A program made the position numbers and the translations under genes. The notes beneath the pieces are model-generated. The model had not been told where the DNA came from. It was given only the letters and a program-made list of their open reading frames with translations, and did no database searches. This document shows positions 26,276 through 54,623 of a stretch of 64,000 nucleotides of DNA, piece by piece (within the stretch, counting starts at the first letter, position 1; each line of letters starts with the position of its first letter). The stretch comes from Vitis vinifera (Eukaryota > Streptophyta > Magnoliopsida > Vitales > Vitaceae): contig NC_081809.1 in assembly GCF_030704535.1 (NCBI RefSeq), positions 637,501-701,500 of the forward strand, given 5' to 3'.

Positions 26276-26382
26276 GATCTTAGCGTTTGAAATTAAAAGG
26301 ATCAAAAGAGGAAGAGAAGGAGGAATGGTTGGTTTGCAGAGAATGGTTTGAGGTGAGGAGAGATCTAAGAACAAGGGTTGGC

Positions 26383-26389
26383 ATTTATA
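26383..26389 (-). promoter_or_regulatory. TATA box of the 25.7-kb PR-10 gene
   Basis: TATAAAT on the minus strand, 108 bp upstream of the ATG. The conserved upstream block follows at about 26408-26440. Confidence 0.75.
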
Positions 26390-26440
26390 GATGGAGGACC
26401 AAGGTTCCCTCGTGTGAAGGTGTGTCTCTAGTTTTCAAAG

Positions 26441-29054: not shown

Positions 29055-29275
29055 AGGCTTCATTTGGATACACTTTTTTCTTTTAATTTATTTTTAAAAA
29101 TAAAAGTTCTATATAAAATTTAAGGAAGTAAATTTTATTTTTAATTAGTTTAAAAAAATCATTATATTTTCAATGTTAATTCCTAAAATTTCTTGAAATT
29201 TATATAAAATTTACTATTATTTTCTATTTTTAAAAACAGAAAACATGAAATGTATCCAAATAGATCCTAAGTTAT
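29055..29275. mobile_element. Small AT-rich MITE inside the MULE
   Basis: Short inverted terminal wording: left 'catttggatacac', right 'tgtatccaaatag'. The centre is AT-rich and non-coding. A related copy lies at about 50412-50702 in the other long MULE, in the opposite orientation, so it probably inserted before the MULE-bearing block was duplicated. Confidence 0.6.
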
Positions 29276-29301
29276 TACTTGTTGAATGTCTAATAAAAAT
29301 G

Positions 29302-32300: not shown

Positions 32301-32504
32301 TATCTTGTAAGGAACACATGACTTGAATCTTCTATATAACTCCTAGTGCACCATAAGTCACATACAATGTAAGTGATAGAGATATGAATACTTAGATAAC
32401 AATTCATGTAAATAAGGATACAAATGGGAATCATAAATAAATAAAGCTATTAATTAAACCTTATTCTATTACATCATGATGTTTTCAAGGGTTTTATCCT
32501 AACA
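29302..32504. mobile_element. Solo LTR interrupted by a second LTR of the same family
   Basis: Begins TGTTGAGAAT and ends TTATCCTAACA. It is bounded by a perfect 5-bp target duplication AAATG (29297-29301 and 32505-32509). The uninterrupted MULE wording across this site survives at about 24290 ('aataaaaatgcaagtgg'), confirming the insertion. The outer LTR (29302-30427 plus 32033-32504, about 1.6 kb) is interrupted by a related LTR at about 30428-32032. No coding domains are present. The family is probably copia-like by its TGTTA...AACA ends, an inference. Confidence 0.8.
30428..32032. mobile_element. Inner LTR nested in the outer LTR
   Basis: About 1.6 kb, diverged from but collinear with the outer LTR (shared phrases such as 'aaacccctaaagagtttata', 'ggagagttaactacactcta' and 'ttgtcaaaatccataaacc'). 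The right end TATATTTTAACA is clear, and the left end is approximate. A clean target duplication is not evident. The same outer/inner arrangement recurs, reversed and incomplete, at 40886-41500. Confidence 0.65.
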
Positions 32505-33405
32505 AAATGCAAGCGGCAAATTCATGTAGCCATGTTGGGAAATTCCAATATGTTTTAGATAAAGAAATAATATTCAACACATACTTGCAAGTTAGACATG
32601 ATGTTTCACATGCAAGCAGTTGACCGATTGGTGAGAGCATAAGAGAACACATATCAAGGGGTTGGTCATCAGTATTTATCCAAGTGAATTTAGACACTAG
32701 TTTGGGCACATGTCGACTATTTGATCTTGACCATATTCCATGTGCATAGGTTGTTACTACTTGTAGATAATATTATAACATTTCATGTCACGTTCAATGC
32801 TCCCAATACTTTACTACTAACTCATTGTTGTCTTAATATTCATAGTCTATCTATTGAATTTCAAATGATATGGATTGGATAATACCTTAAACAAGGTGGC
32901 TAAAAAGAAGACCAAAGAAAAAAGAAAAAAAATCCTTTTTTGTGGAGAAGGTAAGAGTATACGTTGTTATAGTCGATGTGATCAATATGATGATAATTAG
33001 AAAACATGCAAACCATCAATCCTTTTATATCCTTGAGATCATTATAGCTTTGGCACACTATGGACTAACAAGCCATGAAAATTGTAATAGTGATTTTTTT
33101 TTTATTTGATGTAAATGGAAATATAAATTTCTTTGTTGTTTATGGTGATAAGATAAGCACATAGATGGAAATTGTAATACTGATCCTTCTATATATTTGG
33201 ATGGCCATACAAATGAAAATTGCATGTTTCATCTCAACTATGGGCATAAAATTCCTTAAGTTTGTTCATAGTGATTTGGATGATAGTTAACTTCAAAACC
33301 TTTGGAATAAAAATAATAAGGAATAGGTTGAAAGGTACTTTTGTCGAGAATGAATCATTTTTTAGGTTAAACTATGTAGAGGGTTAGATTTGCTAAATTA
33401 GAATT

Positions 33406-33720
33406 ATTTCATGGATCATTGACTTGTTTGTAAGTGTTCTTTTCTATTAAATTGAAGCATTGGGCATACCTCTTAACCCTATTGTGGGTCCTAAGGTAGA
33501 AGTCATTGTGTTATAAGAAATCAAATAATCATTTAATAGAAACCAATTTTTAAAAATAAATAAATAAATAAATAAAATTAAAAATGGTTTTCCAAATAAA
33601 GTATTTCCAATTTACAGCATCGATCATGCATATATCAAAATGAATAGTTCTCTGCAGTAATTCACTAACAACAATCTTAGTGACTAATTTGGACTCGGTG
33701 CAGTGCCAAAATATTGCTTA
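33406..33720. other. 3' flank of the 34.6-kb PR-10 unit
   Basis: Duplicated flank, the reverse-complement counterpart of about 39690-39990 downstream of the plus-strand gene at 38.8 kb. A (TAAA)n run is near 33556-33577. No gene is seen. Confidence 0.5.
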
Positions 33721-33729
33721 ATTAGTAAA

Positions 33730-34388
33730 GGGAGAATTATCTTTTGAGGGTAGATGGGCCCCCAAATTAACAAAAGGTCCATATAACTCTTCAAATTGAG
33801 TTGAAGGATATGAAATAGTAACGGACAAATATACCCTTTAAGAACACATATAAAATATTTTATAAAATTAAGTTAAATAATTTTTTTTCAATAATTTTTT
33901 TTTCAAAAATACTAAATTAAATAAAAGCAGTTTTCAAAAATATTAAATTAAATAATTTTTTTTCAAAAATATTAAATTAAATAATTTTTTTTCAAAAATA
34001 TTAAATTAAAATTTTTTTTTCAAAAATATTAAATTAAATTAAAGTATTTAAAAATATATATTAAATTTTTTTTTTAAATATTAAATTAAATAAGTTTATT
34101 TTTAAAAAATATTAAATTAAATAAAAGTATTTAAAAAAATATTAAATTACATAAAAGTATTTTTTTTAAATATTAAATTAAATAAAAAATATTAAATTAA
34201 ATAAAAGTATTTTTCAAAAATATTTTTTTTTTTCTCAAAATCAATAAAGGGCATATTTGGAAATACTGAAGGATAATATCCTTCAACTCAATTTTCATTC
34301 TTTCATTGGGTCTTGGGCTCAATTTGAAGAGTTATATGGATTTTTTGTTAATTTGGGGGCCCATCTACCCCCAAAACATAATTCTCCC
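33730..34388. mobile_element. Mutator-like MITE, 659 bp, with 9-bp target duplication
   Basis: Inverted repeats of about 70 bp: left GGGAGAATTATCTTTTGAGG, right (reverse complement) GGGAGAATTATGTTTTGGGG. A perfect 9-bp duplication ATTAGTAAA flanks it (33721-33729 and 34389-34397). The centre (about 33850-34225) is a degenerate tandem array of 'aaaatattaaattaaataa'. It has no coding capacity. It is absent from the matching position downstream of the 38.8-kb gene (about 39675), so it inserted after those units separated. It is related to the MITE at 12009-12648. Confidence 0.92.
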
Positions 34389-34630
34389 ATTAGTAAAAAG
34401 ATGATTTTCAATATATTTATTTATTAAGGCAATATAACAACCACTCTTCATTGAAATAAAACATTACAAGTACTCCCAAGGATCACACCTAGGAAACTCT
34501 TATTTCTAAGCCGAGGCTACTTTGGCCATACGGCAAAAAACACAAAAGATCCAAACTTATTAAGACTGATTCTATGAATATGAAAGTGGACTCAAGAGAC
34601 TAATTTCTCAATTACCACAGGCAATTTTAC

Positions 34631-35236
34631 TTAATAGGCATCAGGGTGTGCCAAGATGTAGGCTTCAATAGCCTTGAACACTGCGAGAGACTCCTCTTTG
34701 CCGCCCTTAACGTGCTCTTCACTGATCTCTACACCGGCCTTGGTGTGGTACTTTTTGGTGTTCTTGTAGATGCATCCTCCATCAGGAGAAGCCACCACTT
34801 TGAGCTCATGAGAAATTGATTCAATGCCGCTCGTCAAAACATCTCCATCAATCACAGTGTAGCTGAATGAGAAGTTCTCTTTGTCAATCGCATCAATCCT
34901 GTGTGTCATGCTTTTGAATTTTCTGCCTGGAAACAAGAAAAAGAAAAAGAAAAGAAAAAAAAAAAGAACCCCCGTTAGTCTATCTGTTAACATGTTCATA
35001 GCACCATGCAACGATGGTTATATGTTCTGCAATGATTATAACAGAAACTAACCTTCACCAAAGTGAATCTTCTTGATGGTTCCGGGACCTCCCTGTCCTT
35101 GTAGGATTTCCACACTCTTGATATCTTGAGGCCTTATCTTGGGAATGAGGTTGTCAGAATCGAGGATAGAGGCCTTGAACATCTTGGCTGGGGGAACCGA
35201 GGAAGTGACCTCACTCTCGTAAGTGAAAACACCCAT
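34631..35236 (-). CDS. PR-10 protein, GQGGPGT subtype (34.6-kb copy)
   Basis: Exons 35053-35236 and 34631-34926, 126-bp intron, 159 aa. The P-loop is GQGGPGT: Gln48 replaces the usual Asp, removing the acidic side chain while all glycines stay. Subtype markers are [13 protein letters not shown] in exon 1 and [30 protein letters not shown] and EESLAVF in exon 2. The C-terminus is [13 protein letters not shown]. It is the minus-strand mirror of the 38.8-kb gene; the two promoters face away from each other across 3.6 kb. No frame damage is seen. Its 3' flank carries the 659-bp MITE. Confidence 0.94.
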
Positions 35237-35343
35237 GATCTTAGAGTTTGAAATGAAAAGGATCAAAAGAGGAAGACAAGGAGGATTGGTTGGTTTGCAG
35301 AGAGTGGTTTGAGGTGAGGAGAGATGTGAGAACAAGAGGTGGT

Positions 35344-35350
35344 ATTTATA
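35344..35350 (-). promoter_or_regulatory. TATA box of the 34.6-kb PR-10 gene
   Basis: TATAAAT on the minus strand, 108 bp upstream of the ATG. The conserved block containing CTTTGAAAACTGGAGACACA lies at about 35385-35402. Confidence 0.75.
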
Positions 35351-35409
35351 GATGGAGGATCAAGGTTCCCTTGTGTGAAGTTGTGTCTCCAGTTTTCAAA
35401 GGTAGAGAT

Positions 35410-36199
35410 GGTTGCATCTGAGGAAGGTTCTAGGTAATATACTATTTTTCAATAAAGGAGTTCTATTCATGATGTCACGTGGGAATCGCTGGTTCGTTTC
35501 AAGTGGTGGTCTAATTCGTTTTTTCTTTCTTTTTTATGTTTTTTTTATTTTATTTTTTTTTTGGTTTTTCGTTTTCTGGGCGGGAGGAGGGAAAATAGAA
35601 AAGAAAAAAAAACAAATAAAACAAAATAAATGCGTGGATCTGATTATTAACCAGCGAGAAACTTATCCTTCTACTTTCAGTGCATTTAGAGGTAATCAAC
35701 ATGTAGAATACAACAGGAAATGAATATTTTCCTTGTGATTCATGGAGAATGGCATAATCCGAGTCCAGAAATGCAGGCTATAAAATTGAATAAATATTTA
35801 CAAACTGATAAGCCCCTTTAAAAGTGATGAAAACAAATTCGGGAATGTTAAAATGCATGTGCTCTTGTATATTCCCGGCGGCTTTTCTATTTTTCCAAAC
35901 AACTAGAAGCTTTGACTTAATTCAAAAATGGATGGCTACAATAACTCCAACATGATCATGACTGTACCTTGGTAATGACCCTGGAAGATCAAAAATAGAT
36001 TGATTGGGATACGGGAAAATTTTTGGAGTGAAGTAGAATGAAGGCCAGTGTGGTATTAACAGATTGGCAGATCAATTCAGAGAGCTAACTTATTGGACAA
36101 CCACAGTTCTTGCTTAGCGAGTAAACTGTAAAGCTAGCAGAGAAAATCAAAAGAATCTGGCCATAGTTAAAAGGACTATTTGATTAAAATGAATGAAAG
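35410..36199. other. Upstream flank of the 34.6-kb PR-10 gene
   Basis: PR-10-unit flank, inverted relative to 38000-38640 upstream of the 38.8-kb gene. It includes a pyrimidine-rich tract (35517-35580) and the distal module near 35897. No gene is seen. Confidence 0.55.
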
Positions 36200-37030
36200 A
36201 ATCCTAATCTTGCAAATTTAGCCCTCTACATATTTCAATCTCAAAAATGAACTATTCTTGATAAAAATTTCCTCCAGCCTATTTTCCCTCTTATTTATCC
36301 CATTTCTTCAAACTTTGAACTTCAATGTACCTTTATTCTTTTTACCTCCATTTATTTTTCTTTCAATTCTTATTTATTGAATGTTCTAAAGTACTCTTGA
36401 TGCATGAGATGCGGTGAATATTTAAAAAGTCTCAACTTATTACCATTTTTTTTCATGTCGGTTGCAGCCATGGAAATTAAGGGACTCAAAAGCAGTAAAT
36501 AGACATAAAAAGTGTGGAGGAGCATTGTCTATATGACAAGGTCTAATGATGGTAAGTAATTAAATTCAACTATGTAATTTATGGTACATTTTGTTTTGTT
36601 GGCAAATTTGCTTTTTATATAAATATAAATATATGTTAAATAGAGTTTTAAGATAACAAATAAAGTTGCGCTTCTTAGTTCTATACCAAACTTCACCGAT
36701 GCTCTGAACTTGATGCAGGTAATTAAGTCCATATATATGTAGTCATCCTATATTAACTCTATATTATTATTATAAATGTTTTATTTTTTTTGTTGAAAAT
36801 AGTTACGAGTTAGGATATTAAAAATTATTTAATAATTTAAACAATTTTTGTAAGGGTAGTATTTGTGATAGTAAAGATGATTAACAATTTATTTATTTTT
36901 TATTTACTATGGTTAACTTCAAAACATTTGGAATAAAAATAATAAGGAATAGGTTGAAAGGTATTGTTGTCAATAATGAGTCATTTTTTAGGTAAGGTAT
37001 GTGAAGGGCTAGATTTGCAAAATTGGAATT
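36200..37030 (+). mobile_element. Internally deleted MULE, 0.83 kb
   Basis: Ends left AATCCTAATCTTGCAAATTT, right (reverse complement) AATTCCAATTTTGCAAATCT, the same terminal family as 27340-33405. It keeps the left leader and the exon-like motif ending 'aatgatggtaag' (36543-36556) but has lost the transposase interior. It lies near the centre of the inverted duplication, between the divergent genes at 34.6 and 38.8 kb. Confidence 0.75.
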
Positions 37031-37108
37031 ATTGCATCCATCATTGACTTGTTGGTAAGTGTTCTTTTCTATTAAATTCAAGGATTGGATATTTATTAAA
37101 GACTTATC

Positions 37109-38827
37109 CATGTGTCTTTATAAGATATATCATTCCTAAAAATCAGCAATAGGACGAAACCCACCAAAAAGCAGCCTCAATTATACAAACACAACCAACT
37201 TGCCTGAAACGTCTGCATCCAATTTGGAAAGTTCAAAGTACTCCACCGATTTTGATTATCAAATTGGTGTCCACTTCCTGAAAATCAGTTCCAATTTGAG
37301 GATGAAAATACATTAACTTGCCTGAAAATTTTGCATCAAAAATCTCAATATCAGAAAATCTTTGATTGTTCTACATCAAAAAATGGAAGCTGGTCAAGAT
37401 ATATTTTTTTTATTTGTTGACCTTTCTTTTATGGATAACACTGATGACACACAAAAAATGTCTAGGTACACAACTTTCTTTTATTTTTAAGAATCATCAC
37501 CCAAGGATATGCATTGAAAAGTATAACATAATGGCTAAATTAGGAAAACTGTATGGTTAATTATCTATTTCATTTCTCATGAGTACCATAGTAATAATAA
37601 TATTGGTTCCATCAATGAGAAAGAATTCTTATAAAGGGTAATTGGATGGTTATACTAGAAACTCAATTGTACAGTACTTGGGGGTAAGAAAAAAATGGCT
37701 GAATTGTATTTCTTAAACACTTTCTGAAACGACTAGAACACTCATTTGAATGGTATGATGAGTATCATGCTACCATGGGCAGATTAAAACTGTGGTTAGT
37801 TTCTTCTGGTTTTCTTTTCTTGATTTACAGTTTCCTGGTTAAGCTAAAACTGTAGCTGTCCCATAAGTTAATTAGTTCTCTGAATTGATTTGCCAATATG
37901 TAAATACCACACTGGTCTTCATTATAATTTTTTATCTTCCAGGGTCGTTTCCAAGTGACAATTACCAGGAAGGTGGTGGGATTTGTCTCCACTGCTGTTC
38001 TTCAATCCTGTTGAAGTCGTTGCAGCCATCCATTTTTGAATAAAGTCCAAGCTTCTAGTTGTTTAGAAAATTAGTAAGGACTCCTTGAATATAGAAGATC
38101 ACATTTCCACATTCCAGAATTTGTTTTCATCAATTTAAAGGGATTTATTCATTTGTAAATGCATATTCTATTTTGGCCTGCATTTCTGGATTGGGATTAT
38201 GCCATTCTCCATCAATCACCAATATTCCACAATGTTGACTGCAAAAAGGGTGTGCTACCCAACTACAAATATATGATCAAAAGTAACTTGAATGCCATAA
38301 CGATTACAATGTTAATATCCCAAAAAAAAAAAAAAAAAAATTCATTTCCTATTCTATTCCACATATTCTTTACCTGTAAAAAGCACTAGTCCTCATATGT
38401 CTGCCGACAAAAAGGATAGGTTTCTCACTTGTTAATAATAAGATCCACATATTTGCTTTGTTTTGTTTGTTTGCTTTCTTTCTTTCTTTCTTTCTTTTCC
38501 CTCTTTTTCTTCCTCCTAGCTACCCCCAACTGAAAAAAAAAATTAAAAAGAATTAGGTCACAACTTGAATTTAACGAGCCGAGTCCAACATGAGATCATA
38601 GTACTCCTTTATGGAAAAGTAGCGGATTACTTTGAATCTTCCTCAGATGCAACCGTCTCTGCCTTTGAAAACTAGAGGCACACCTTCACTCGAGATAACC
38701 TTTGTTCTCCTTCTATAAATGCCACCCCTTGTTCTCACATCTCTCTTCACCTCAAACCATTCTCTGCAAACCAATCAATCCTCCTTCTCTTCCTCTTTTG
38801 ATCCTTTTCATTTCAAGCTCTAAGATC
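37109..38827 (+). repeat. Upstream half of a direct duplication (copy 1)
   Basis: Nearly identical by eye to 41508-43190, including 'tccatgtgtctttataagat', a CTTT microsatellite (about 38476-38500 versus 42842-42864) and the PR-10 promoter. The unit starts within a remnant of the inner-type LTR. Copy 1 has small insertions (about 37130-37155) relative to copy 2. It contains no other gene; the short frames at 37366 and 38159 are not gene-like. Confidence 0.85.
38663..38720 (+). promoter_or_regulatory. Core promoter of the 38.8-kb PR-10 gene
   Basis: The TATA box TATAAAT at 38714-38720 is 108 bp before the ATG. Just upstream, CTTTGAAAACTAGAGGCACA (38663-38682) followed by CCTTCAC is the block conserved in every PR-10 unit in the window, including the pseudogenes. 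It is a candidate cis-element; function is inferred from conservation only. Confidence 0.65.
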
Positions 38828-39436
38828 ATGGGTGTTTTCACTTACGAGAGTGAGGTCACTTCCTCGGTTCCCCCAGCCAAGATGTTCAAGGCCGCTATCC
38901 TCGATTCTGACAACCTCATTCCCAAGATAAGGCCTCAAGATATCAAGAGTGTGGAAATCCTACAAGGACAGGGAGGTCCCGGAACCATCAAGAAGATTCA
39001 CTTTGGTGAAGGTTAGTTTCTATTATAATCATTGCAGCACATATAACCATCGTTGCATGGTGCCATGAACATGTTAACAGATAGACTAACGGGGATTCTT
39101 TAATTTTATTTTTTTTTCTTTTTCTTTTTCTTGTTTCCAGGCAGAAAATTCAAAAGCATGACACACAGGGTTGATGCGATTGACAAAGAGAACTTCTCAT
39201 TCAGCTACACTGTGATTGACGGAGATGTTTTGACGAGCGGCATTGAATCACTTTCTCATGAGGTCAAAGTGGTGGCTTCTCCTGATGGAGGATGCATCTT
39301 CAAGAACACCAAAAAGTACCACACCAAGGCCGGTGTAGAGATCAGTGAAGAGCACGTTAAGGGCGGCAAAGAGGAGTCTCTCGCATTGTTCAAGGCTATT
39401 GAAGCCTACCTCTTGGCACACCCTGATGCCTATTAA
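38828..39436 (+). CDS. PR-10 protein, GQGGPGT subtype (38.8-kb copy)
   Basis: Exons 38828-39011 and 39141-39436, 129-bp intron, 159 aa. Exon 1 is identical in protein to the 43.2-kb gene and differs by one residue (Ala for Ser in FKAAILD) from the 34.6-kb gene. The P-loop is GQGGPGT. Private exon 2 residues are SLSHEVKVV and GCIFKNT, and the C-terminus is [13 protein letters not shown]. The usual signature [17 protein letters not shown] and the KYHTK segment are present. The ATG is the first in the conserved 'aagatcatgggtgtt' context. It is intact by inspection. It heads the plus-strand half of the inverted array. Confidence 0.95.
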
Positions 39437-40880
39437 GTAAAATTGCCTGTAGTAATTGAGATATCAGTCTCTTGAGTCCACCTTCATATTCATAGCATCA
39501 GTCTTAATAAGTTTGGATCTTTTGTGTTTTTTTCCGTATGGCCAAAGTAGCCTCGGCTTAGAAATAAGAGTTTCCTAGGTGTGATCCTTGGGAGTACTTG
39601 TAATGTTTTATTTCAATGAAAAGTCCTTGTTATATTGCCTTAATAAATAAATATATTGAAAATCATCTTTTTACTGATCAAGCAATATTATGGCACTCCA
39701 CCGAGTCCAAATTAGTCAAAAGATTGTTGTTAGTGAATTACTGTAGAGGGCTATTTATTTTGATATATGAATGATCGATGCTGTAAACAGGAAATACTTT
39801 ATTTGGAAAACCATTTTTAATTTTATTTATTTATTTATTTATTTATTTTAAAAAAATTGGTTTCTATTAAATGATTATTTAATTTCTTATAAACAATGAC
39901 TTCTACCTTAGGACCCACAATAGGGTTAAGAGGTATGCCCAATGCTTCAATTTAATAGAAAGAACACCTATCAACAAGTCAAGGATGGATGAAATAATTC
40001 TAATTTTGCAAATCTAACCCTCTACATAGTTTAACCTCAAAAATGACTCATGCTCGACAAAAGTACCTTTTAACCTATTCCTTATTATTTTTATTCCAAA
40101 GGTTTTGAAGTTAACTATCATCCAAATCACTATGAAGAAACTTAAGGAATGTTAAGCCCATAGTTGAGATGAAACATGCAATTTTCATTTGTATGGGCAT
40201 CCAAATAGAAGGATCATTATTACAATTTCCATCTATGTACTTATCCGATCTCTATAAGCACCAAAGAAATTTATATTTCCATTTACATGAAATAAATAAA
40301 AAAATCACTATTACGATTTTTATGCCTTGTTACTCCATAGTGTGCCAAAGCTATAATGATCTCAAGGATATAAAAGGATTGATGGTTTACATGTTTTCTA
40401 ATTATCGTCATATTGATCACATCGACTATAACAACGTATACTCTTACCTTCTCCACAAAAAAGGATCTTTTTTTTCTTTGGTCTTCTTTTTAGCCACCTT
40501 GTTTAAGGTATTATCCAATCCATATCATTTGAAATTCAATAGATAGACTATGAATATGAAGACAACAATGAGTTAGTAGTGAAGTATTGGGAGCATTGAA
40601 TGTGACATGAAATGTTATAATGTCTACAAGTGGTAACAACCTATGGACATGGAATATGATCAAGATCAAATTGTCGACATGTGCTCAAACTAGTGTCTAA
40701 ATTCACTTGGGTAAATATTGATGACCAACCCCTTGATATGTGTTCTCTTACGCTCTCACCAATCAGTCAACTGCTTGCATGTGAAACATCATCTCTAACT
40801 TGCAAGTATGTGTTGAATATTATTTCGTTATCTAAAACATATTGAAATTTCCCAACATGGCTACATGAATTTGTCGTTTG
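39437..40880. other. 3' flank of the 38.8-kb gene with a MULE fragment
   Basis: A 3'UTR with AATAAA-type signals near 39642, then the reverse-complement counterpart of 32510-33720. A MULE end (AATTCTAATTTTGCAAATCT) starts at about 39994 and MULE interior wording runs to 40880. There is no MITE at the position matching 33730-34388. No host gene is seen; the frame at 40169-40546 is MULE/repeat sequence. Confidence 0.65.
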
Positions 40881-40885
40881 CATTT

Positions 40886-41507
40886 TGTCAGGATAAAACT
40901 CTTGAAAACATCATGATGTAATAAAATAAGGTTTAATTAATAACTTTATTTATTTATGATTCCCATTTCTATCCTTATTTACATGAATTGTTATCTAAGT
41001 ATTCATATCTCTTTCACTTGTATTGTATGTGACTTAGGGTGCATTAGGAGTTATATAGAAGATTCAAGTCATGTGTTTCTTACAAGATGATAAATAGTTC
41101 ACAATCAGTTCATGGATTTAGGTAATCTATTAGAGACTATAGTAGATTACCTCCCAATTTAAGGGATGACTTGTCTTAATCATTAAGATAATTTTCCCTA
41201 GTGAGTGCACTAGTATGTACAATTACGCATCAAACAAGACTTACAATAAATCACATTAGTTTTTGGGTAAGTATGATTCACTAAAATTCTATGTTGCATG
41301 AGCTTTCAAACTTGAGAGAATATTCAGATAATGCTAATGTATTTAGTGGATTTTGTTAAAATATAGCCCTACAAAGCAAGACATGATATAACATATTTTA
41401 GTTTCATTAATAAATTTATTTATGTAAGATTTTAGTTTCCTTTATTATCATATTTACATTAATTGGTTATCTAAATATTCACACGTATATTAGAAGTTGC
41501 ATAAAAT
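40886..41507. mobile_element. Truncated nested LTR pair (inverted counterpart of 32000-32504)
   Basis: The outer LTR begins at 40886 (TGTCAGGATA), preceded by CATTT, the complement of the AAATG target duplication at 32505. At 41354 a second LTR begins (TGTTAAAATATAG) at the same nested junction as at 32032. Both are cut short by the start of the next duplication unit. The shared junctions show that the nesting predates the inverted duplication. Confidence 0.75.
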
Positions 41508-43190
41508 TATCCATGTGTCTTTATAAGATGAAACCCATCAAAAAGCAGCCTCAACTATACAAACACAACCAACTTGCATGAAATTTCTGCGTCCAATTTT
41601 GGAAAGTTCAAAGTACTCCACCTATTATGATTATCAAATTGGTGTCCACTTCCTGAAAATCAGTTCCAATTTGAGGATGAAAATACATTAACTTGCCTAA
41701 AAATTTTGCATCAAAAATCTCAAAATCAGAAAATGTTTGATTATTCTAAATCAAAAAAATTAAAGTTGGTCAAGATATTTCTTTTTATTTGTTGACCTTT
41801 CTTTTACAGATAACACTGATGACACAAAAAATGTCTAGGTACACAACTTTCTTTTATTTTTCAGAATCATCACTCAAGGATATGCATTGAAAAGTATAAC
41901 ATAATGGCTAAATTAGGAAAATTGTATGGTTAATTATCTATTTCATTTCTCATGAGTACCATAGTAATAATAATATTGGTTCCATCAATGAGAAAGAATT
42001 CTTATTAAGGGTAATTGGATGGTTATACTAGAAACTCAATTGTATAGTACTTGGTGGTAAGAAAAAAATGGCTGAATTGCATTTCTTAAAACACTTTCTG
42101 AAACTACTAGAACCCTCATTTGAATGGTATGATGAGTATCATGCTACCATGGGCAGATTAAAACTGTGGTTAGTTTCTTCTGGTTTTCTTTTCTTGATTT
42201 ACAGTTTCCTGGTTAAGCTAAAACTGTAGTTGTCCCATAAGTTAATTAGTTCTCTGAATTGATTTGCCAATATGTAAATACCACACTGGTCTTCATTCTA
42301 ATTTTCTATCTTCCAGGGTCGTTTCCAAATGACAATTACCAGGTAGGTGATGGGATTTGTCTCCACTGCTGTTCTTCTTCAATCCTGTTGAAGTCGTTGC
42401 AGCCATCCATTTTTGAATAAAGTCCAAGCTTCTAGTTGTTTAGAAAATTAGTGAGGACTCCTTGAATATAGAAGAGTACATTTTCACATTCCAGAATTTG
42501 TTTTCATCAATTTAAAGGGATTTATTCATTTGTAGATATATATTCTATTTTGGCCTGCATTTCTGGATTGGGATTATGCCATTCTCCATCAATCACCAAT
42601 ATTCCACAATGTTGACTGCAAAAAGGGTGTGCTACCCAACTGCAAATATATGATCAAAAGTAACTTGAATGCCATAACTATTACAATGTTAATATCCAAA
42701 AAAAAAATCATTTCCTGTTCCATTCTACTTATTCTTTACCTGTAAAAAGCACAGTCCTCAGATGTCCACCGAGGAAAAGGATAGGTTTCTCACTTGTTAA
42801 TAATAAGATCCACATATTTGCTTTGTTTTGTTTGTTTGCTTTCTTTCTTTCTTTCTTTCTTTTCCCTCTTTTTCTTCCTCCTAGCTACCCCCACTGAAAA
42901 AAAAATTAAAAAGAATTAGGTCACAACTTGAATTTAACGAGCCGAGTCCAACATGAGATCATAGTACTCCTTTATGGAAAAGTAGCGGATTACTTTGAAT
43001 CTTCCTCAGATGCAACCGTCTCTGCCTTTGAAAACTAGAGGCACACCTTCACTCGAGAAAACCTTTGTCCTCCATCTATAAATGCCACCCCTTGTTCTCA
43101 CATCTCTCTTCACCTCAAACCATTCTCTGCAAACCAATCAATCCTCCTTCTCTTCCTCTTTTGATCCTTTTCATTTCAAACTCTAAGATC
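41508..43190 (+). repeat. Upstream half of the direct duplication (copy 2)
   Basis: Second copy of the unit at 37109-38827. Its similarity continues unbroken through exon 1, the intron and most of exon 2 of the 43.2-kb gene, and ends inside that exon. It holds the promoter and no other gene. Confidence 0.85.
43077..43083 (+). promoter_or_regulatory. TATA box of the 43.2-kb PR-10 gene
   Basis: TATAAAT, 108 bp before the ATG. The upstream conserved block CTTTGAAAACTAGAGGCACA lies at about 43026-43045. Confidence 0.75.
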
Positions 43191-43798
43191 ATGGGTGTTT
43201 TCACTTACGAGAGTGAGGTCACTTCCTCGGTTCCCCCAGCCAAGATGTTCAAGGCCGCTATCCTCGATTCTGACAACCTCATTCCCAAGATAAGGCCTCA
43301 AGATATCAAGAGTGTGGAAATCCTACAAGGACAGGGAGGTCCCGGAACCATCAAGAAGATTCACTTTGGTGAAGGTTAGTTTCTATTATAATCATTGCAG
43401 CACATATAACCATCGTTGCATGGTGCCATGAACATGTTAACAGATAGACTAACGGGGATTCTTTAATTTTATTTTTTTTCTTTTTCTTTTTCTTGTTTCC
43501 AGGCAGAAAATTCAAAAGCATGACACACAGGGTTGATGCGATTGACAAAGAGAACTTCACATTCAGCTACACTGTGATTGACGGCGATGTTTTGACCAGC
43601 GGCATTGAATCAATTTCTCATGAGCTCAAAGTGGTGGCTTCTCCTGATGGAGGATGCATCTACAAGAACACCAAAAAGTACCACACCAAGGCCGGTGTAG
43701 AGATCAGTGAAGAGCACGTTAAGGGCGGCAAAGAGGAGTCTCTCGCATTGTTCAAGGCTATTGAAGCCTACGTCCTGGCACATCCCGATGCCTATTAA
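43191..43798 (+). CDS. PR-10 protein, mosaic GQGGPGT subtype (43.2-kb copy)
   Basis: Exons 43191-43374 and 43503-43798, 128-bp intron, 159 aa. Exon 1 and intron match the 38.8-kb gene almost base for base, including the P-loop GQGGPGT. Exon 2 keeps that subtype's markers ([30 protein letters not shown]) up to 43746. From 43772 the codons (gtcctggcacatcccgatgc) and the whole 3' flank match the 46.4-kb gene. A few changes within exon 2 (TFSYT, ESISHEL) agree with the GEGGPGT genes or the 34.6-kb gene, so conversion may be patchy. The protein is full length and looks functional. The mosaic fits an unequal crossover between neighbouring units. Confidence 0.95.
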
Positions 43799-44782
43799 GT
43801 AAAATTTCCTGTAGTAATTGAGATATTAGTCTCTTGAGTCCACCTTCATATTCATAGCATCATTTGTGTTTTAGCCATATGGCCAAAGTAGCCTCGGCTT
43901 AAAAATAAGACTTTCCTAGGTTTGATCCTTGGACTTGTAATGTTTTATTAGAATGATGAGTCATCGTTGTAATACTTTCATAAATATACGAAATTATTAA
44001 GCAATATTCCGGCACTGCACTAACTCCAAATTTGTCACTAAGATTGTTGTTAGGGAATTACTGGAGGGAGCAATTTATTTTGACATGTGTATGATGGGTT
44101 TACAATGGAAATACTTTAATTGAAAAACCATCTTTAAATTTATTTTATTTAAAAAAAAAAATGTTTCTATTAAATGATTATTTAATTTATTATGACACAA
44201 TGACTTTGACTTAGGACAAGAATAGGATTAAGACCCAATCCTTCGATTTAATAGAAAACAATACTTACTAACCAGTCAATGATGGATGAAATATCTCCAT
44301 TTTAGGAAATCTAATCCTCCACACATTTTAACATAAAAATGACTTATTCTTGACAAAATAACTTCTCAACCCATTCCTTATTATTTTTGTTCCAAAAGTT
44401 ATGAAGTTAATTATAATTATTATGATCAATCATTGTGAAAAACTTAATGAATGTTAAGTCCATAGTTGAGAAGGGACATGCAATTTTCATTCATAATTTA
44501 TACATGATGTCCTCTCACAATGTACAAAAAAGTAATTTATATTTCCATTCACATGGTATTGAAAAAAAATCATTCTTCTAGTTTTCATGGCTTGTTAGTC
44601 CATAGGGTGCCAAAGCTATAATAATCTCAAGGATGTAAAAGGATTGATTATTTGCATATTTTTTATTATGGCCATATTTGATGGCATCAACCACAATGAT
44701 GTGTGCTCTTACCTTCTCATCTAGAAAAGATTCTTTCTTGTTGTCTTCCTTGTTTAAGGTATTATCCAATCCATATCATTTG
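43799..44782. other. 3' flank of the 43.2-kb gene with a MULE fragment
   Basis: Collinear with 47006-48411 downstream of the 46.4-kb gene, but with a single copy of the roughly 370-bp segment that is tandemly doubled there. A MULE end with the wording 'ttttaacataaaaatgactt' lies near 44327. No gene is seen. Confidence 0.6.
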
Positions 44783-45737
44783 TGTTAGAATATTTGGAAA
44801 AACTTCGATCCAAGCCTTGGATTGTGAGGTGCATACATCTATCATCCTGAGGATCCTAGATCTAATAGAAACAATATATACACACACATATATTAAAACA
44901 TTAGATCTAGAAGTTTTGAAAACTTTACTTTTGATCTGGATGTTCTTATATTAAATTCAATTGGTGAAGAAGATCTCAAAACCTACATATCTTCCACCCA
45001 TTGTATCAGTACTCTTGAAACCTTGTACTTGAGAAGGGCAAACATCTCTCTACAAGGATGAAGGTTAGGATTCTTTTTCTCCGGAAGTCAATGGATAAGA
45101 ATGTGTCTAATTTTAAACCCCTAAGGGAGCTTATATAAACTTTTTTATAGGTTTAAGTGACTTAAATTCATATTGGGCTTGGGTCACTTAATTTAGCACA
45201 TTAGATTCTAATTAATTATTTAGTCTTATTGGGTCGTAATTAACTAATTAGCTTAATTAAAAAAGAATCATTCATAAACTTCTGTGCAATCTTATATTTT
45301 ACTAAAATACTCTTATGTGTACACTTATGGAGAAGAAACTAATAAATCCATAAAATAACATGTCATCGAGAAATGTGAGCTAAAGCATGGATCATTGAGA
45401 CCCATAGAAAAATATGGGTTCCCTCATAACCAATTTTAAAATTGACTCAACATCTCATTATAAAGAGTCAACTGCACTTTACTATTTTATGAAAATTATA
45501 TCAAGATTAATTAAATTCAATTTAATCAATTTCTGGGGCTCATAACCTATTATTCACTACATGTAAACTCCTCATAAACTAATGTCTATAATTAAAAAGG
45601 TACAAAATGTTAACCTCTTAAAATTGATCACTTCTGCTAACCTTAAGTCTTATATCTACTTATAATTTGATAAATTGATATACTTTAACTCACCAACACT
45701 ATATTTCAAATTCCACAAAAAGAATTACTACAACACC
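44783..45737. mobile_element. Truncated LTR, same insertion as at 48412
   Basis: Begins TGTTAGAATATTTGG right after ATTTG (44778-44782), the same target site and sequence context as the complete solo LTR at 48412-50033. It ends abruptly at about 45737, where the upstream flank of the 46.4-kb PR-10 unit starts. The truncation therefore marks a duplication breakpoint. Confidence 0.8.
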
Positions 45738-46403
45738 ACAAATTTGAAGTTCCTTGCAGCCATTACAGCCATCCATTTTTGAATAAAGTCCAAGCTTCTA
45801 GTTGTTTACAAAATTAGTAAAGCCTCCTTGAATATAGAACAGTCCATTTTAACATTCCAGAATTTGTTTTCATCAATTTAGAGGACTTCTCATTTTGGAC
45901 ATATTTATTCAATTTTAGCCTGCATTTATGGACTGGGATTGCGCCATTCTCCATGAATCACCAATATTCCACAATGTTGACCGCAAAAAGGGTGTGCTAC
46001 CAACTGCAAATATATGATCAAAAGTAACTTGAATGCCATAATTACAATGTTGATATCCAAAGAAAAAATTCATTTTCTGTTCTATTCTAAATATTCTTTA
46101 CCTGTAAAAAGTACTAGTCCTCAGATGTCTACCGAGGAAAAAGATAGGTTTCAGCCGAGTCCAACATGAGATCATAGTACTCCTTTATGGAAAAGTAGCG
46201 GATTACTTTGAATCTTCCTCAGATGCAACCGTCTCTGCCTTTGAAAACTCGAGACACACCTTCACTCGAGCAAACCTTTGTCCTCCATCTATAAATGCCA
46301 CCCCTTGTTCTCACATCTCTCTTCACCTCAAACCATTCTCTGCAAACCAACCAATCCTCCTTCTCTTCCTCTTTTGATCCTTTTCATTTCAAACTCTAAG
46401 ATC
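45738..46403 (+). other. Upstream flank and promoter of the 46.4-kb PR-10 gene
   Basis: PR-10-unit flank with the distal module near 45785 and shared wording such as 'ccacaatgttgaccgcaaaa'. It lacks the (CTTT)n tract found upstream of the 38.8- and 43.2-kb genes. The TATA box TATAAAT is at 46290-46296, 108 bp before the ATG. Confidence 0.7.
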
Positions 46404-47556: not shown

Positions 47557-47639
47557 TTCCATTTTAGGAAACCTAACACCCTACATATTTTAACATAAAA
47601 ATGACTTATTCTTGACAAAAATACTTCTCAACCCATTCC

Positions 47640-48383
47640 TTATTATTTTTGTTCCAAAGGTTATGAAGTTAACTATAATTATTATGATCAATCATTGTGA
47701 AAAACTTAATGAATATTAAGCCCATAGTTGAGAAGGAACATGCAATTTTCATTCATAATTTATACATGTCCTCTCACAATGTACAAAAAAGTAATTTATA
47801 TTTTCATTCACATGGTATTGAAAAAAAAATCACCCTTCTAGTTTTCATGGCTTGTTAGTCCATAGGGTGCCAAAGCTATAATAATCTCAAGGATGTAAAA
47901 GGATTGATCATTTGCATATTTTTTATTATGGCCATATTTGATGGCATCAACCACAATGATGTGTGTTCTTACCTTCTTCTCTAGAAGGGATTCTTTCTTG
48001 TTGGCCACCTTGTTATTTTCGTTTCAAAGGTTTTGAAGTTAACTATAATTATCAAGATATCATTATGAAAAACTTAATGAACTTTAAGTCCATAGTTGAA
48101 AAGAAACATGTAATTTTCATTCTTAATTTATACATGTCCTATCATAATATACAAAAATGTAATTTATATTTTCATTCACATGGTAACCAAAAAAAATCAC
48201 TCTTACAGTTTACATGGCTTGTTAGTCCATAGGATGCCAAAGCTATACTAATTTCAAGGATGTATAAGAATTGATCATTTGCATGTTTTCGATTATGACC
48301 ATTTGATTGCATCAACTATAACAACGTGTGCTCTTACATACCTTCTCCTCTAAAAGGGATTCTTTCTTATTGGCCACCTTGTT
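47640..48383. repeat. Tandem duplication, two copies of about 370 bp
   Basis: Copy 1 (about 47640-48010) and copy 2 (about 48011-48383) share order and wording ('aaggtt.tgaagttaactata', 'gaaaaacttaatga', 'catggcttgttagtccatag', 'ggattctttctt.ttggcca'). The copies are clearly diverged. Downstream of the 43.2-kb gene only one copy exists, so the doubling is specific to this unit or was lost there. Confidence 0.85.
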
Positions 48384-48411
48384 CAAGGTATTATCCAATC
48401 CATATCATTTG

Positions 48412-50033
48412 TGTTAGAATATCTATAAAAACTTCATTTGAAGCCTTGGATTATTGTAAGGTGCATACATCTATCGTCCTAAGGATCCTAGATCTAATAG
48501 TAACAATATATGCACACACACATATTGAAACATTAGATCTAGGAGTTTTGAAAACTTTACTGTTGATTTGAATGTCCTCAGATCAAATCCAGTTGGTGAA
48601 GAGGATCTCAAAACCCACATATATCTTCCACCCAATGTATCACTCTTGAAGTTTGGTACTTGAGAATGGTAGACATCTTTCTCTACAGGGATGAGGTTTG
48701 GGTTCCCTTTCTTGAGAAGTCAATGGATAAGAATGTGTCTAATTTTAAACCCCTAAGGAAGTTTATATAGATTTTTTTTTTATGGGCTTAAGTGACTTAA
48801 ATTCATATTAGTCTTGAGTAACTTAATTTAGCAGATTGGGTCCTAATTAATTATTTAACCCTATTGGATTGTAATTAACTAATTAGCCTAATCCAAAAAA
48901 AAAAACCCATTCATAAGCTTCTGTAAAACCTTGCATTTGATAAAAATAAATAAATAAATAAAACACTCTTATGTGCACAGTTATGTATAAGAAACTCATA
49001 AATCCTTAAAATAACATATCACTAAGAATGTGAGCTCAAACAAAGACCATTGTAATCCATAGAAAAATATTGGCATCATCATAACCAATTCTAAAGTCGA
49101 TTGAACATCTCATTACAAAGAGTCACTTGCACTTTAGTATGCTATGAAAATTATATCAAGAATGAAATTGATTAAATTCAATTTAATTAATTTCTCAGGA
49201 TTATGACCTACTCTCCATTACATGCAAACTCCCTATGAACTGATGTTCATAACTTAAAATGCTACAAACTATCAACCTCTTAAAATCAATCACCTCTATC
49301 ATCCTTAAGTCTTAGATCTACTTATTATTTGATAAACTAACATATTTTAATTTACTAAGAGTATATGTCAAATTATTACAACACCATAGATTTCATGATC
49401 ACTTGTCCTTAAGATCACACAAGATGACACATTATCTCAAACTTATGAGATATCAAGGTACCTATAATCATCTGTCTTGATCAACAATAACCTAATCCAT
49501 AGATAATATAAGACCACCTTAAGATCTAACTCGGAAGTTAAAATCATTTAAGACCTTAACATTTGCTTAATATCTTCAACACTAGCTCAATATTCTCTCA
49601 ATGTTGAAACTCATGCAAAATAATAGTTTGGTAAAGTTATGACTACTCGATAACTAATATCATAACTCACCATAGGTATTATCCAATATGTAACCATACA
49701 CACTAGTGCACTCATTATAGAAAATCTCAATAATCAAGACTAGTCATCCTTCTAATTAGGAGGTAGTACACTGTAACCTAAAAGAATTTATTAAGTCCAT
49801 GAACCGATTACGAATAACTTATCAACTTGCAAGGAACTTATAACTTAAATCTTCCATGTAACTCTTAATGCACCTAAGTCATGTATAATGTTAGTGATGC
49901 ATGCATGAATGCTTAAATAAATCTTAATGCAAACACATTTAAAATAGTGGAAATAGAAATCATAATATATAAATGTATTAATGAAATCTGACTTTGTTAA
50001 ATCATGTCATGCTTTTAAAGCTCTATCGGAACA
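48412..50033. mobile_element. Solo LTR, 1.6 kb, with target duplication ATTTG
   Basis: Begins TGTTAGAATATC, ends TATCGGAACA, and is flanked by ATTTG at 48407-48411 and 50034-50038. It is collinear with the LTRs at 29302-32504 and 44783-45737 (shared 'aaacccctaagg', 'tatataga', 'gactagtcatcc' and 'aagtcatgtataatg' regions). No coding domains are present. The empty site survives near 24640-24655 in the 25.7-kb block. Confidence 0.9.
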
Positions 50034-50411
50034 ATTTGTCATTGGATAGATAGATAATGAGTATGAAAATAACAATGAGTTAATAATAAAGTATTAGGAG
50101 CATAGAATGTGACATGAAATGTCATAATATCTATAAGCAGCTGTAATAGTCTGTGCTCATGGAATTCACATGTGCATGAACTAATGTCTAAGTTCACATA
50201 GGTTGAAATTGATGACCGACCTCTTAATATGTTTCTCTTATATTCTCACCAAGACAATCAACTACTTGCATGTCAATTGTCATAGGATATCATGTCTAAC
50301 CTACAAGTATGCATTGACTTGTATTTCATCATCTAAAACATATTAGATATTCTCCACTTGGTTGCACAAATTTGCCACTTGCATTTTTATCAAAACATTC
50401 AAGAAGCAATA

Positions 50412-50702
50412 ACTCAATATCCATTTGAATACACTTCATGTTTTCTTTTTTTTTTTTAAACAAAAAATATTAGTAAATTTTAAATAAAATACAGGATCTA
50501 TTAGAGAATTACACTGAAAATGTAATGGTTTTAAAAAATTGATTAAAAATATTTTACTATACTAAATTTTAAAATTTTTTTAAGTAATTTTTAAGAACAT
50601 AAAATAGGTCTATAATTTTTGTATCAAATTTTCTACATTTGTATAGGATTCTTTTATTTAAAAAATTTAAAAACAAGAAGTGTATTCAAATAAAGCCTTA
50701 GA
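50412..50702. mobile_element. Small AT-rich MITE inside the MULE (second copy)
   Basis: Inverted wording at the ends: left 'catttgaatacacttcatg', right 'agaagtgtattcaaataaag'. The centre is AT-rich and non-coding. It is related to 29055-29275 at the matching place in the other long MULE. Confidence 0.6.
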
Positions 50703-52239
50703 TGTAGATTTAGCTATTTTGAACTCAACTTTCTTAAGTTTGAGAGGCATCATGTACAAACTTCTTTTGTAATTATTTTTAACTTGAATATAATTGGTGC
50801 ACTTCTATATAATCATTGCTAATGCCACTAATTATCGGGGGTAGTTTCATGCTTTGTCTTTTATTTGATGCCCTTTCCATTATGGTATTATCATGTGGGA
50901 AACCATAGTTTGTATTAATGATGGTTAGAATTAGTGTACTCTGAGCTATTTCACTTCTAAAATGGTCAATTTGGGTCACTTGTCCATCATTAGTATGGTT
51001 AGTATGCACCATCCCAATTCATATTCTAGTCATGATCATAAGAGCCTTTAAGTGGCTCATTGTTAAATCTTATTCCATTTTCACTACCATCGCATAGAGT
51101 TTTGAATCACTCATAATGAATGAATCCACTTTTATACATCAACATTAAGTTATATCAAATTCTTTCTCAATCTCGAATGATATATGATATTCAAAATAAG
51201 AGTTGCAAATCAATTTATAACCATTATTCTCATTCTCTATTCTATTGTGATACACAATAAAAAAAACCCATTACTGCAATCAAAACTAATAAAAATTTTC
51301 AAAACACCATCCTTAGTTAATTGTATAGGAGTTGTTGGTATTTTAGCATCGAATACATACTTCATTGAAGCAAAACACTTTCTTGGATCTAGCTTTAGAA
51401 TATCATACACAAGCCCTAATAATTCTTCATATGAAATAATCTTCAAGACTTCAAAGCCTTTAACTCTACATCCTTCAAAACAAAAATCATTTTGATCATG
51501 TACCTAGTCTTTTTCATATAGAAACATTATTCCTAATTCATTAACCATTAAGATAATAAAATAATCCCAACTATTAATATAATTACACAATAGTAGAATA
51601 TTTTTAAGCTATAATAGAGCATTACTATCTATAAATTGGTATTCATTTTCGAAAACTTATTCATTGCTAAATTCATATCATTTTAATAGACATTTAATAT
51701 ATATTTTTTAGTGAATAAGAAACAAACAAAAATTAGTCATATCTACTATCACAAATACTACCAATATTAATGCTACAAAAATAAAATGTTTCTCAAAAAT
51801 TAAATAATTTCAAATATTGTGACTCTCAACCTTTTTAACCAAAAAAAAAATCATTAAAAGAATGATGTATTTAGGCTTTAGTTCATGCCATGAATTTCAA
51901 GGTTAATGTGCCAATGATTCAACTCCAAGTTGAATACAACGGAGAATAATAATAATATAGAGAGACTTAACCTACGTTCAAAACATGATAAAATTTGTCA
52001 ACCAAAAATTGTAGCTTTATATCTTTATCTATTATGTCAAAACCCTATTTCACACACACACATTGGTATAAAGAGGAAATATGCCAACAACTTCAAAATC
52101 ACCATAAAATTCCATAATTGAGTTTCATTACTTACCATTATTTGACCTTGCGATATTGACAATGATTTAATACACATGTTATGTCTATTTCCTGTTTTTA
52201 ACTTACCTTTCCATGGCTGCAAGTTAATGACAAAAAAAA

Positions 52240-52370
52240 TGGTCCAACTTTCTTATATATTCAAAAAATTCAATGAATAAAAAATGAAAGAGAAATAGAT
52301 GGAAAAATGGTCGAACTTTCTTATATATATTCAAAAAATTCAATGAATAACAAATGAAAGAGAAATAGAT
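52240..52370. repeat. Tandem repeat of about 65 bp in the MULE leader
   Basis: Two near-identical copies reading 'aaaatggtc.aactttcttatatat' followed by 'tcaaaaaattcaatgaataa' and 'aatgaaagagaaatagatgg'. They lie within the minus-strand MULE 5' leader. Confidence 0.85.
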
Positions 52371-52551
52371 GGGAGTGAAGAGAAGAAACACATATTGATG
52401 TTGAAAATTTGAAGAGATGATATGATAAATAAATGAGAATGGAAGAAAAAGCTAGAATTGGATGAAAAATAAGCTGAAGGGTATTTTTGTCAAGAATGGG
52501 TCATTTTTTAGATTGAAATATGTGAAGGATTAGATTTGCAAAATTACAATT

Positions 52552-53574
52552 CTCATTCATTTTAATCAAATAGCCTTTTAACTATGGCCGGTTTCTTTTG
52601 ATTTTCTTTTGATTTGCCAATCAAAAGAACATATTCCCTCTACATTGTAATTACTACTGGCCTTCATTCTACTGCACTCCAAAAATGTTCCCTCTATATC
52701 TCAATCAATCTATTTTTGATCTCCCAGGGTCATTTCCAAGTTACCGTTATGATCAGGTAGGCCAGGGGATTTGTCTCCATTGCTATTCTTCTTCAATCTT
52801 GTTGGAGTCATTGCAGCAATCCATTTTTGAATAAAGTCCAAGCTTCTAGTTGTTTAGAAAATTAGTAAAGCCTCCTTGAATATAGAAGAGCGCATTTGAA
52901 CATTCCAGGATTTGTTTTCATCAATTTAAAGGGACTTCTCACTTTGTAGTTATTTATTCAATTCCAGCCTGCATTTATGGACTTGTATTGCGCCATTCTC
53001 CATGAATCACCAATATTCCACAATGTTGACCCACAAACGGTGTGCCACCGACTACAAATATATGATCAAAAGTAACTTGAATTCCCCGTCTGTTACTATG
53101 TTTATATCATGGAAAATATTTATTTCCTGTTGTGCTCTACATATCGTTTGCCTGCAAATGCACTGAAAGTAGAAGGAAAAGTTTCTCATTAATTGGTTAA
53201 TAGTAAGATCCACACATTTGTTTTGTTTTGTTTGTTTGCCTTTTATTTTCTTTTTTGCCCTTTTCCCCCCTCTCCGCTGAGAGAGAAAGAAAAAAGGAAT
53301 TAGACCACCACTTGAATTTAACCAGCCGAGACCAACATGAGATCATAGTACTCCTTTATGGAAAAATAGTGGATTACTTTGAACGTTCCTTAGATGCAAC
53401 CGTATCTGCCTTTGAAAACTAGAGACACACGTTCACACGAGGGAACCTTGGTCCTCCATCTATAAATGCCAACCCTTGTTCTTAGATCTCTTCTCACCTC
53501 AAACCATTCTCTGCAAACCAACCAATCCTACTCCTCTTCCTCTTTCGATCCTTTTCATTTCAAACTCTAAGATC
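52552..53574 (+). other. Upstream flank and promoter of the 53.6-kb PR-10 gene
   Basis: PR-10-unit flank with the distal module near 52840. The TATA box TATAAAT is at 53461-53467, and the conserved block CTTTGAAAACTAGAGACACA is at about 53410-53429. No other gene is seen. Confidence 0.7.
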
Positions 53575-54178
53575 ATGGGTGTTTTCACTTACGAGAGTGA
53601 GGTCACTTCCTCGGTTCCCCCAGCCAAGATGTTCAAGGCCGCTATCCTCGATTCTGACAACCTCATTCCCAAGGTAAGGCCTCAAGCTATCAAGAGTGTG
53701 GAAACCATACAAGGAGAGGGAGGCCCTGGAACCATCAAGAAGATTCACTTTGGTGAAGGTTAGTTTTGTATTATAATCATTGCAGCACATATAACTATCA
53801 CTGCATGGTGTCATGAACATGTTAACAGAACAGAATAGAATAATGGAGGTTCTGTTTTTTTTTTTCTCTTTCTGGTGTCCAGGCAGCAAATTCAAAAGCA
53901 TGACACACCGGGTTGATGCGATTGACAAAGAGAACTTCACATTCAGCTACACTGTGGTTGACGGAGATGTTTTGACGGGCGGCATTGAATCAATTTCTCA
54001 TGAGCTCAAAGTGGTGGCTTCTCCTGATGGAGGATCCATCTACAAGAACACCAGCAAGTACCACACCAAGGGCGATGTAGAGATCTGTGAAGAGCACGTT
54101 AAGGGTGGCAAAGAGGAGGCTCTGGCATTGTTCAAGGCTATTGAAGCCTACGTCCTGGCACATCCCGATGCCTATTAA
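53575..54178 (+). CDS. PR-10 protein, GEGGPGT subtype (53.6-kb copy)
   Basis: Exons 53575-53758 and 53883-54178, 124-bp intron, 159 aa. The N-terminus is [20 protein letters not shown], the P-loop is GEGGPGT, and [13 protein letters not shown] precedes it with a Thr unique in the set. Exon 2 matches the 25.7- and 46.4-kb genes except for [10 protein letters not shown], a Cys also found near this place in the 22.0-kb gene ([10 protein letters not shown]). The C-terminus is [12 protein letters not shown]. The gene is intact and is the last of the plus-strand series. A 265-bp LTR-like insertion lies about 450 bp downstream. Confidence 0.94.
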
Positions 54179-54623
54179 GTAAAACTGCCTGTAGTAATTG
54201 AGATATTAGTCTCTTGAGTCCACCTTCATATTCATTGCATCTATCAGTCTCAATAAGTTTGGCCTTTTGTGTTTTTGCCATATGGCCAAAGTAGCCTTGG
54301 CTTAGAAATAAGAGTTTCCCAGGTGTGATCCTCGGAGTATTTGTGATGTTCTATTGCCATGAAGTGTCATTATTGTATTACCTTAATAAATATATTGGAA
54401 ATCATCTGTTTTACTAATTAAGCAATATCTGCACCAATTCCAAATTAATTAGTCACTAAGATTGTTAGCGAATTACTGCTGGGCGAGATTTATTTTGATA
54501 CATGCATGATGGTGTAAACTGGAAATACTTTATTTAGAAAACCATCTTTATTTTATTTTTTTTTATAAAAAATTGTTTTCTATTAAATGATTATTTAATT
54601 TACTATAACACAATGACTTCTAC
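54179..54623. other. 3' flank of the 53.6-kb PR-10 gene
   Basis: 3'UTR wording common to the cluster ('ggccaaagtagcc.tggctta', AATAAA-type signal near 54384), then the duplicated flank with the 'attaaatgattatttaattt' phrase. Confidence 0.6.

Follow-up and report, generated by a model that had tools for sequence, protein, structure and literature searches.

The stretch of DNA analysed here (the window) comprises 64,000 nucleotides of Vitis vinifera, bases 637501-701500 of contig C5, and genome searches covered 495.6 Mb in 21 contigs. The PR-10 genes of the window agree in order and strand with the Vitis vinifera PR10 cluster on chromosome 5, for which the published strands are minus for s1-s12, plus for s13-s16 and minus for s17 (PMC3095314). 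By order, strand and contig position this is the array that contains VvPR10.1-a to VvPR10.3-c (s10-s16) of Lebel et al. 2010 (PMC3095314). The focal gene (B43; 43191-43798, plus strand) corresponds by order and strand to VvPR10.3-c, i.e. s14 (PMC3095314). It is flanked on the plus strand by the 38.8-kb copy (A38; 38828-39436), which corresponds to VvPR10.3-b (s13), and by the 46.4-kb copy (C46; 46404-47005), which corresponds to VvPR10.1-b (s15). Further copies are E35 (34631-35236, minus strand; VvPR10.3-a, s12), which is a candidate alternative coding-block donor; F26 (25669-26275, minus strand; VvPR10.1-c, s11) and D53 (53575-54178, plus strand; VvPR10.1-a, s16), both of which have a coding block in common with C46; and G22 (VvPR10.2, s10). 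In all seven copies the frame is intact (158 or 159 aa) and is interrupted by a single GT-AG intron. A38 and E35 are head-to-head inverted copies (38400-41481 vs. 31905-35700) that are alike through about 2 kb of 3' flank, and the F26 and D53 regions (25247-29301 and 50382-54619) are parts of a 4.4-kb inverted duplication with about 75% identity. A piece of PR-10 3' flank lies inverted at 36901-37109, just upstream of where the A38 unit starts, and shares 79% identity with 44214-44422.

B43 consists of exon 1 (43191-43374), a 128-bp GT-AG intron (43375-43502) with no substitutions relative to A38 and one poly-T length difference, and exon 2 including the stop codon (43503-43798), within which the sequence switches from A/E type to C type. 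The exons of 184 and 296 nt encode an intact frame of 159 aa, within the 158-160 aa of the family. The predicted protein matches Pru av 1 (1e09_A) over residues 2-159 with E=3.8e-63, and is homologous to 57 distinct PDB sequences at E<=0.001. It has the P-loop GXGGXGXXK at 47-55 as well as E102, E149 and Y151 (motif and residues assigned by eye), and the intron lies in codon 62; these features are taken from the list in PMC3095314 and, for the intron position, from PMC1552068, and they place the predicted B43 product within the PR-10 / Bet v 1 family. At least 20 genomic matches to B43 were found when diverged copies were counted exon by exon, and all those listed fall in one cluster at C5:624828-695177, so that no donor outside the array is seen among the matches listed. 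The alignments and the informative-site run test cover the seven copies, with the more diverged copies at 4.0, 14.8, 17.6 and 57.7 kb and the 18.8-kb fragment left out. Distance trees were built from all seven, with G22 dropped from the distal 3' segment because it had too few letters there; the pair table (introns, flanks and dS) and the promoter comparison used six copies, and the topology tests and the count of A38-B43 substitutions on the left side used five.

An earlier note on this DNA had proposed that 41508-43746 follows the 38.8-kb gene, and that the switch lies within about 26 bp that are identical in both parents. The A38-B43 alignment begins at 37149 in A38 and 41523 in B43, and its identity is 89.9-100% through the 100-bp step starting at 43723 and 89.0% at step 43823, before falling to 74-82% in the 100-bp steps from 43923 to 44723. 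B43-C46 identity is 93-98% in the 100-bp steps that start between 43723 and 44623, and falls to 58% in the step at 44723. Position 43744 is the final A-like site in the coding sequence and 43772 the first that is C-like, and 43744|43772 has the best likelihood among the single breakpoints tested. The switch is real, and the resulting interval, 43745-43771, spans 27 bp without informative sites. For sites within 42160-44754, the ratio of A-like to C-like sites changes from 84:20 on the left of the breakpoint to 15:157 on the right (Fisher P=2e-35). The run test was our own shuffle of informative sites, which start at 42160 and are taken as independent, and it was applied to ten hand-chosen triplets, uncorrected for number; the A run and the C run in B43 each gave 0/5000 site shuffles, which rules out chance similarity as the cause of the mosaic. 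Topology tests on five copies and five hand-chosen topologies agree with this division: the CDS accepts the two trees that unite A38, B43 and E35 and rejects the three others (delta logL about 120), the 3' flank accepts the tree with B43+C46 and A38+E35 and rejects the four others (delta logL at least 107), and each side rejects the best tree of the other. Taken together, these comparisons lend very strong support to a past recombination event at 43745-43771.

To the left of the switch, A38 is the copy nearest to B43. The 5' flank in common with A38 (41523-43180 in B43, 37149 onward in A38) has 62 substitutions in 1652 sites, and the whole left side has 68 in 2216. This similarity is not uniform, since 43181-43558 has no substitutions in 378 sites (0/5000 shuffles), making it a candidate recent conversion tract. 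The identity over 43181-43558 likely reflects a recent second conversion; coding constraint may explain part of it, though the stretch takes in the intron. The matching A38 sequence starts at 38818, and the flank alongside diverges by 4-5%. The proximal promoter and 5' leader (42940-43190) are common to A38, B43 and C46: B43 differs from each of the other two at 4/251 sites, the three differ among themselves at 4-8 of 251, and the count rises to 21-33 sites when D53, E35 and F26 are compared with them. The topology test on the promoter prefers A38+B43 and does not reject B43+C46 (AU 0.067). At 42388-42810, B43 pairs with A38 and not with C46 (B43+C46 is rejected by AU, P 0.011, though not by SH, 0.10), so that the history also requires an exchange between A38 and B43 or a duplication. 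Upstream of C46, some 150 bp are missing at 46152-46153 (about 42790-42939 in B43 coordinates), and the missing part takes in a pyrimidine-rich stretch that A38 and B43 possess.

Within exon 2, the resemblance of B43 to A38 is less specific. Left of the switch, 4 of the 18 informative sites side with C46; at 43613, 43625 and 43662, A38 alone of the seven copies has a different base, and at 43559 it has the same base as E35 and G22. The CDS does not distinguish between A38 and E35 as the partner of B43 (AU P 0.865 for A38+B43 and 0.135 for B43+E35), so A38 is only one of two choices for the coding parent. With E35 and C46 as parents of B43, the E run gives 0/5000 shuffles and the C run 129/5000. 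The claim that everything up to 43746 follows the 38.8-kb gene holds for the alignment from 41523 and for the best breakpoint; exon 2 left of the switch is not specifically A38-like, E35 being acceptable too.

To the right of the switch, C46 is the nearest copy, and the C-like part of B43 is a bounded island at about 43745-44754. The tail of exon 2 and the 3' flank in common with C46 extend from 43772 to 44754 (up to 48014 in C46), the right bound being the loss of C similarity, and identity is 95.5% over 44376-44754. At about 44745-44754, B43 leaves the first C46 segment and continues like the second, an extra C46 segment (48008-48383) that is 86.0% like B43; B43 itself has no second copy. 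In the C46 3' flank the two segments form a direct duplication of roughly 376 bp (47638-48014 and 48008-48383, 86% identical), the counterpart of which is single behind B43. The notion that the codons from 43772 and the 3' flank follow the 46.4-kb unit is correct as far as 44754. A38-B43 homology stops at 44782, and a dispersed repeat comes next in B43 (44783-45720, plus strand). The repeat had been described as a truncated LTR that follows the 46.4-kb unit; 44783-45712 is only 83.0% identical to its C46 counterpart (48411-49374), vs. 95.5% over 44376-44754, so that the repeat does not follow C46 as closely as the preceding flank does. The repeat has at least 42 genomic matches including itself, mostly about 70% identical, and inspection of three loci of 3.8-4.0 kb revealed no second copy. 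It is best described as a dispersed repeat, and its identity as an LTR is not supported.

Signs of exchange extend beyond B43. A38 is B43-like upstream and E35-like downstream, and when tested as such both runs give 0/5000 shuffles. A38 and E35 have diverged strongly upstream of the gene but are highly similar across the gene and its 3' flank, so that either A38 or E35 must itself be mosaic near the start codon. In C46, the coding block is of the F26/D53 type: the run that resembles F26 spans 43229-43807 and the one that resembles D53 spans 43290-43744 (0/5000 each), and the F26-type block sits between B43-like flanks. E35 tested with A38 and B43 gives runs of 159/5000 and 7/5000, F26 tested with C46 and E35 gives 0/5000 and 1/5000, and D53 tested with F26 and A38 gives 344/5000 and 1037/5000. 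In several pairs, coding blocks are much more alike than flanks. C46 and F26 differ at 2/122 intron sites with a dS of 0.029 (dS/dN from Biopython's experimental module), and at 63/367 sites upstream and 91/552 downstream. The corresponding values for B43 and E35 are 6/125 in the intron, a dS of 0.061, 55/306 upstream and 108/560 downstream, and for C46 and D53 they are 3/122, 0.029, 56/380 and, downstream from 47152, 57/269. D53 flank homology ends near 54635, and the distal D53 figures, which rest on poor alignment, were not used. B43 and C46, with their closely similar promoters, differ at 35/758 sites in the distal 3' flank and at 13/115 in the intron. Purifying selection accounts for part of the low coding divergence, yet introns and dS are low too. 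B43 is only a putative child of A38 and C46, as A38 also scores as a B-left/E-right mosaic and C46 holds an F26-type block.

How did this patchwork arise? The earlier note left the choice between unequal crossover and conversion open. A single unequal crossover between A38 and C46 that made B43 as a new hybrid gene would account for the one dominant breakpoint, and array expansion by unequal crossing over has been proposed for PR10 in PMC3095314. The left A38-B43 and right B43-C46 divergences are also similar (4.2-4.9% in the left flank and 4.8% in the distal 3' flank); this would suit one hybrid-forming event too, but because the two distances are alike, age does not separate the models. The geometry is wrong, however. 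A single exchange that results in the order A38-hybrid-C46 leaves a middle copy with C on the left and A on the right, whereas B43 is A-left/C-right, the configuration of a deletion product, which would not keep intact A and C copies on both sides. A crossover also predicts C46 identity to the end of the unit, whereas B43 leaves C46 at about 44754 and is 83% identical over the 44783 repeat. We consider such an event improbable and reject it on geometry and the right boundary; of the two options, conversion fits the sequence better. A tandem copy of the entire A38 unit, patched with a short piece of C, is likewise disfavoured, given that A38-B43 homology ends at 44782 and is followed by the repeat, although a deletion of that part could reconcile it with the sequence. 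An assembly artefact, i.e. the collapse or mis-joining of near-identical copies, would be favoured by the similarity of the copies (the longest exact match is 299 bp for A38-B43 and 97 bp for B43-C46). It is nevertheless very hard to credit, as the window contains zero N, A38, B43 and C46 each carry private substitutions, and s14 is a gene with the same order and strand in the Genoscope assembly (PMC3095314). In that study, the 17 PR10 sequences each diverge by less than 2% from their counterparts in Pinot noir ENTAV 115, where these are scattered over fifteen scaffolds (PMC3095314).

A more serious contender, to which we give somewhat less than an even chance, is that B43 has been conserved as a unit while exchange made mosaics of its neighbours: A38 would have received its downstream part from E35-like DNA and C46 its coding block from F26/D53-like DNA. 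The A38 and C46 runs described above are what this would produce, as are the near-identical C46-F26 and C46-D53 coding blocks next to strongly diverged flanks. On the other hand, B43 and E35 have a common coding block despite flanks that are about 18-19% divergent, which requires at least one further exchange touching B43, A38 or E35; and in C46 tested with B43 and F26 the B run is not significant (3352/5000), in a test that is poorly suited to an outer run.

The explanation that we regard as probable is that B43 is one unit of a PR10 array in which ectopic gene conversion recurrently copies one neighbour over another. Since mosaic signals recur in A38, C46 and several pairs, repeated ectopic conversion is the simplest common cause. 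Left and right limits exist, and A38, E35 and C46 are all still present, as would befit a two-sided tract with its donor kept, whichever copy was the recipient. Conversion tracts would centre on the exon-intron-exon block, where the copies are most alike, and most would end once the flanks become dissimilar. The 43745-43771 interval would then be the 3' edge of a conversion tract, setting a VvPR10.3-type coding block (as in A38 and E35) against a VvPR10.1-b-type 3' flank (as in C46). In one version, the sequence pasted in would have been an A38- or E35-type block some 545-633 bp long, and the receiving unit one with C46-matching promoter and 3' flank, the block size being bounded by the B43-C46 difference sites 43138, 43200 and 43744 and the A38-C46 site 43772. 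We infer both conversion as the process and B43 as the recipient, the latter being only slightly preferred over B43 as an unchanged unit. More speculatively, and on balance rather doubtful, the coding blocks could move as cassettes, with conversion stopping near the gene edges, the 10.1 and 10.3 types staying homogeneous and the flanks being kept or exchanged per unit. If so, B43 would pair a 10.3 protein with a distinct regulatory context on the 3' side of the gene, and the array would be a natural shuffling system for PR10 regulation.

The consequences for the protein appear small. B43 differs from A38 at 5/159 residues, from E35 at 5/159 and from C46 at 17/159, and the only difference beyond the switch is at residue 152, where B43 and C46 have V, A38 has L and E35 has I. 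The expression "new full-length gene" is too strong, because the switch alters only residue 152 and the 3' flank. The switch has its larger effect outside the coding sequence, where the 3' UTR and the DNA behind it are swapped, which might influence expression. With more than 100 matching ESTs, s14 was taken as expressed, and specific primers for VvPR10.3-b and -c were not designable (PMC3095314). Primers or probes in the 3' UTR need not follow the coding type, as the coding sequence of B43 is of the 10.3 type and its 3' flank is 10.1-b-like, and whole-gene PR10 trees mix several histories.

Concerted evolution was proposed for the seven VvPR10 genes in 2010; PMC3095314, in the parts available, bases its comparison on CDS, introns and predicted signals, without mapping a breakpoint or a mosaic of the flanks. 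In titles and abstract openings of the open-licence papers listed, the 43745-43771 breakpoint is not described. The excerpts of PMC4227267 at hand concern other PR10 genes of wild grape and hold no polarity information for B43. In birch, PR-10.03B02.01 is one in vivo recombinant allele recovered in three independent PCRs, and in vivo PR-10 recombination was judged probably rare, with one true recombinant and many PCR artefacts (PMC1552068). Betula populifolia 01E01.01 and 03E01.01 were described as products of unequal crossing-over, 01E01.01 being found with both originals (PMC2671506). As in B43, two PR-10 paralogs are joined within the gene in the birch recombinants; unlike B43, these are PCR clones that the accessible passages of both papers describe without flanks (PMC1552068, PMC2671506). 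What is new here are base-level breakpoints and flank evidence for a concerted evolution that was previously only suggested in grapevine PR10; beyond the PR10 family little is added, and the B43 mosaic is a real but ordinary trace of copies overwriting each other, not a clean single crossover. Interlocus gene conversion in tandem families typically leaves patchwork identity and bounded tracts while the donor copies are kept. Its direction and reciprocity are not readable from one haplotype, as is the case here, and it is in its patchwork identity, retained donor copies and bounded tracts that the B43 array resembles it.
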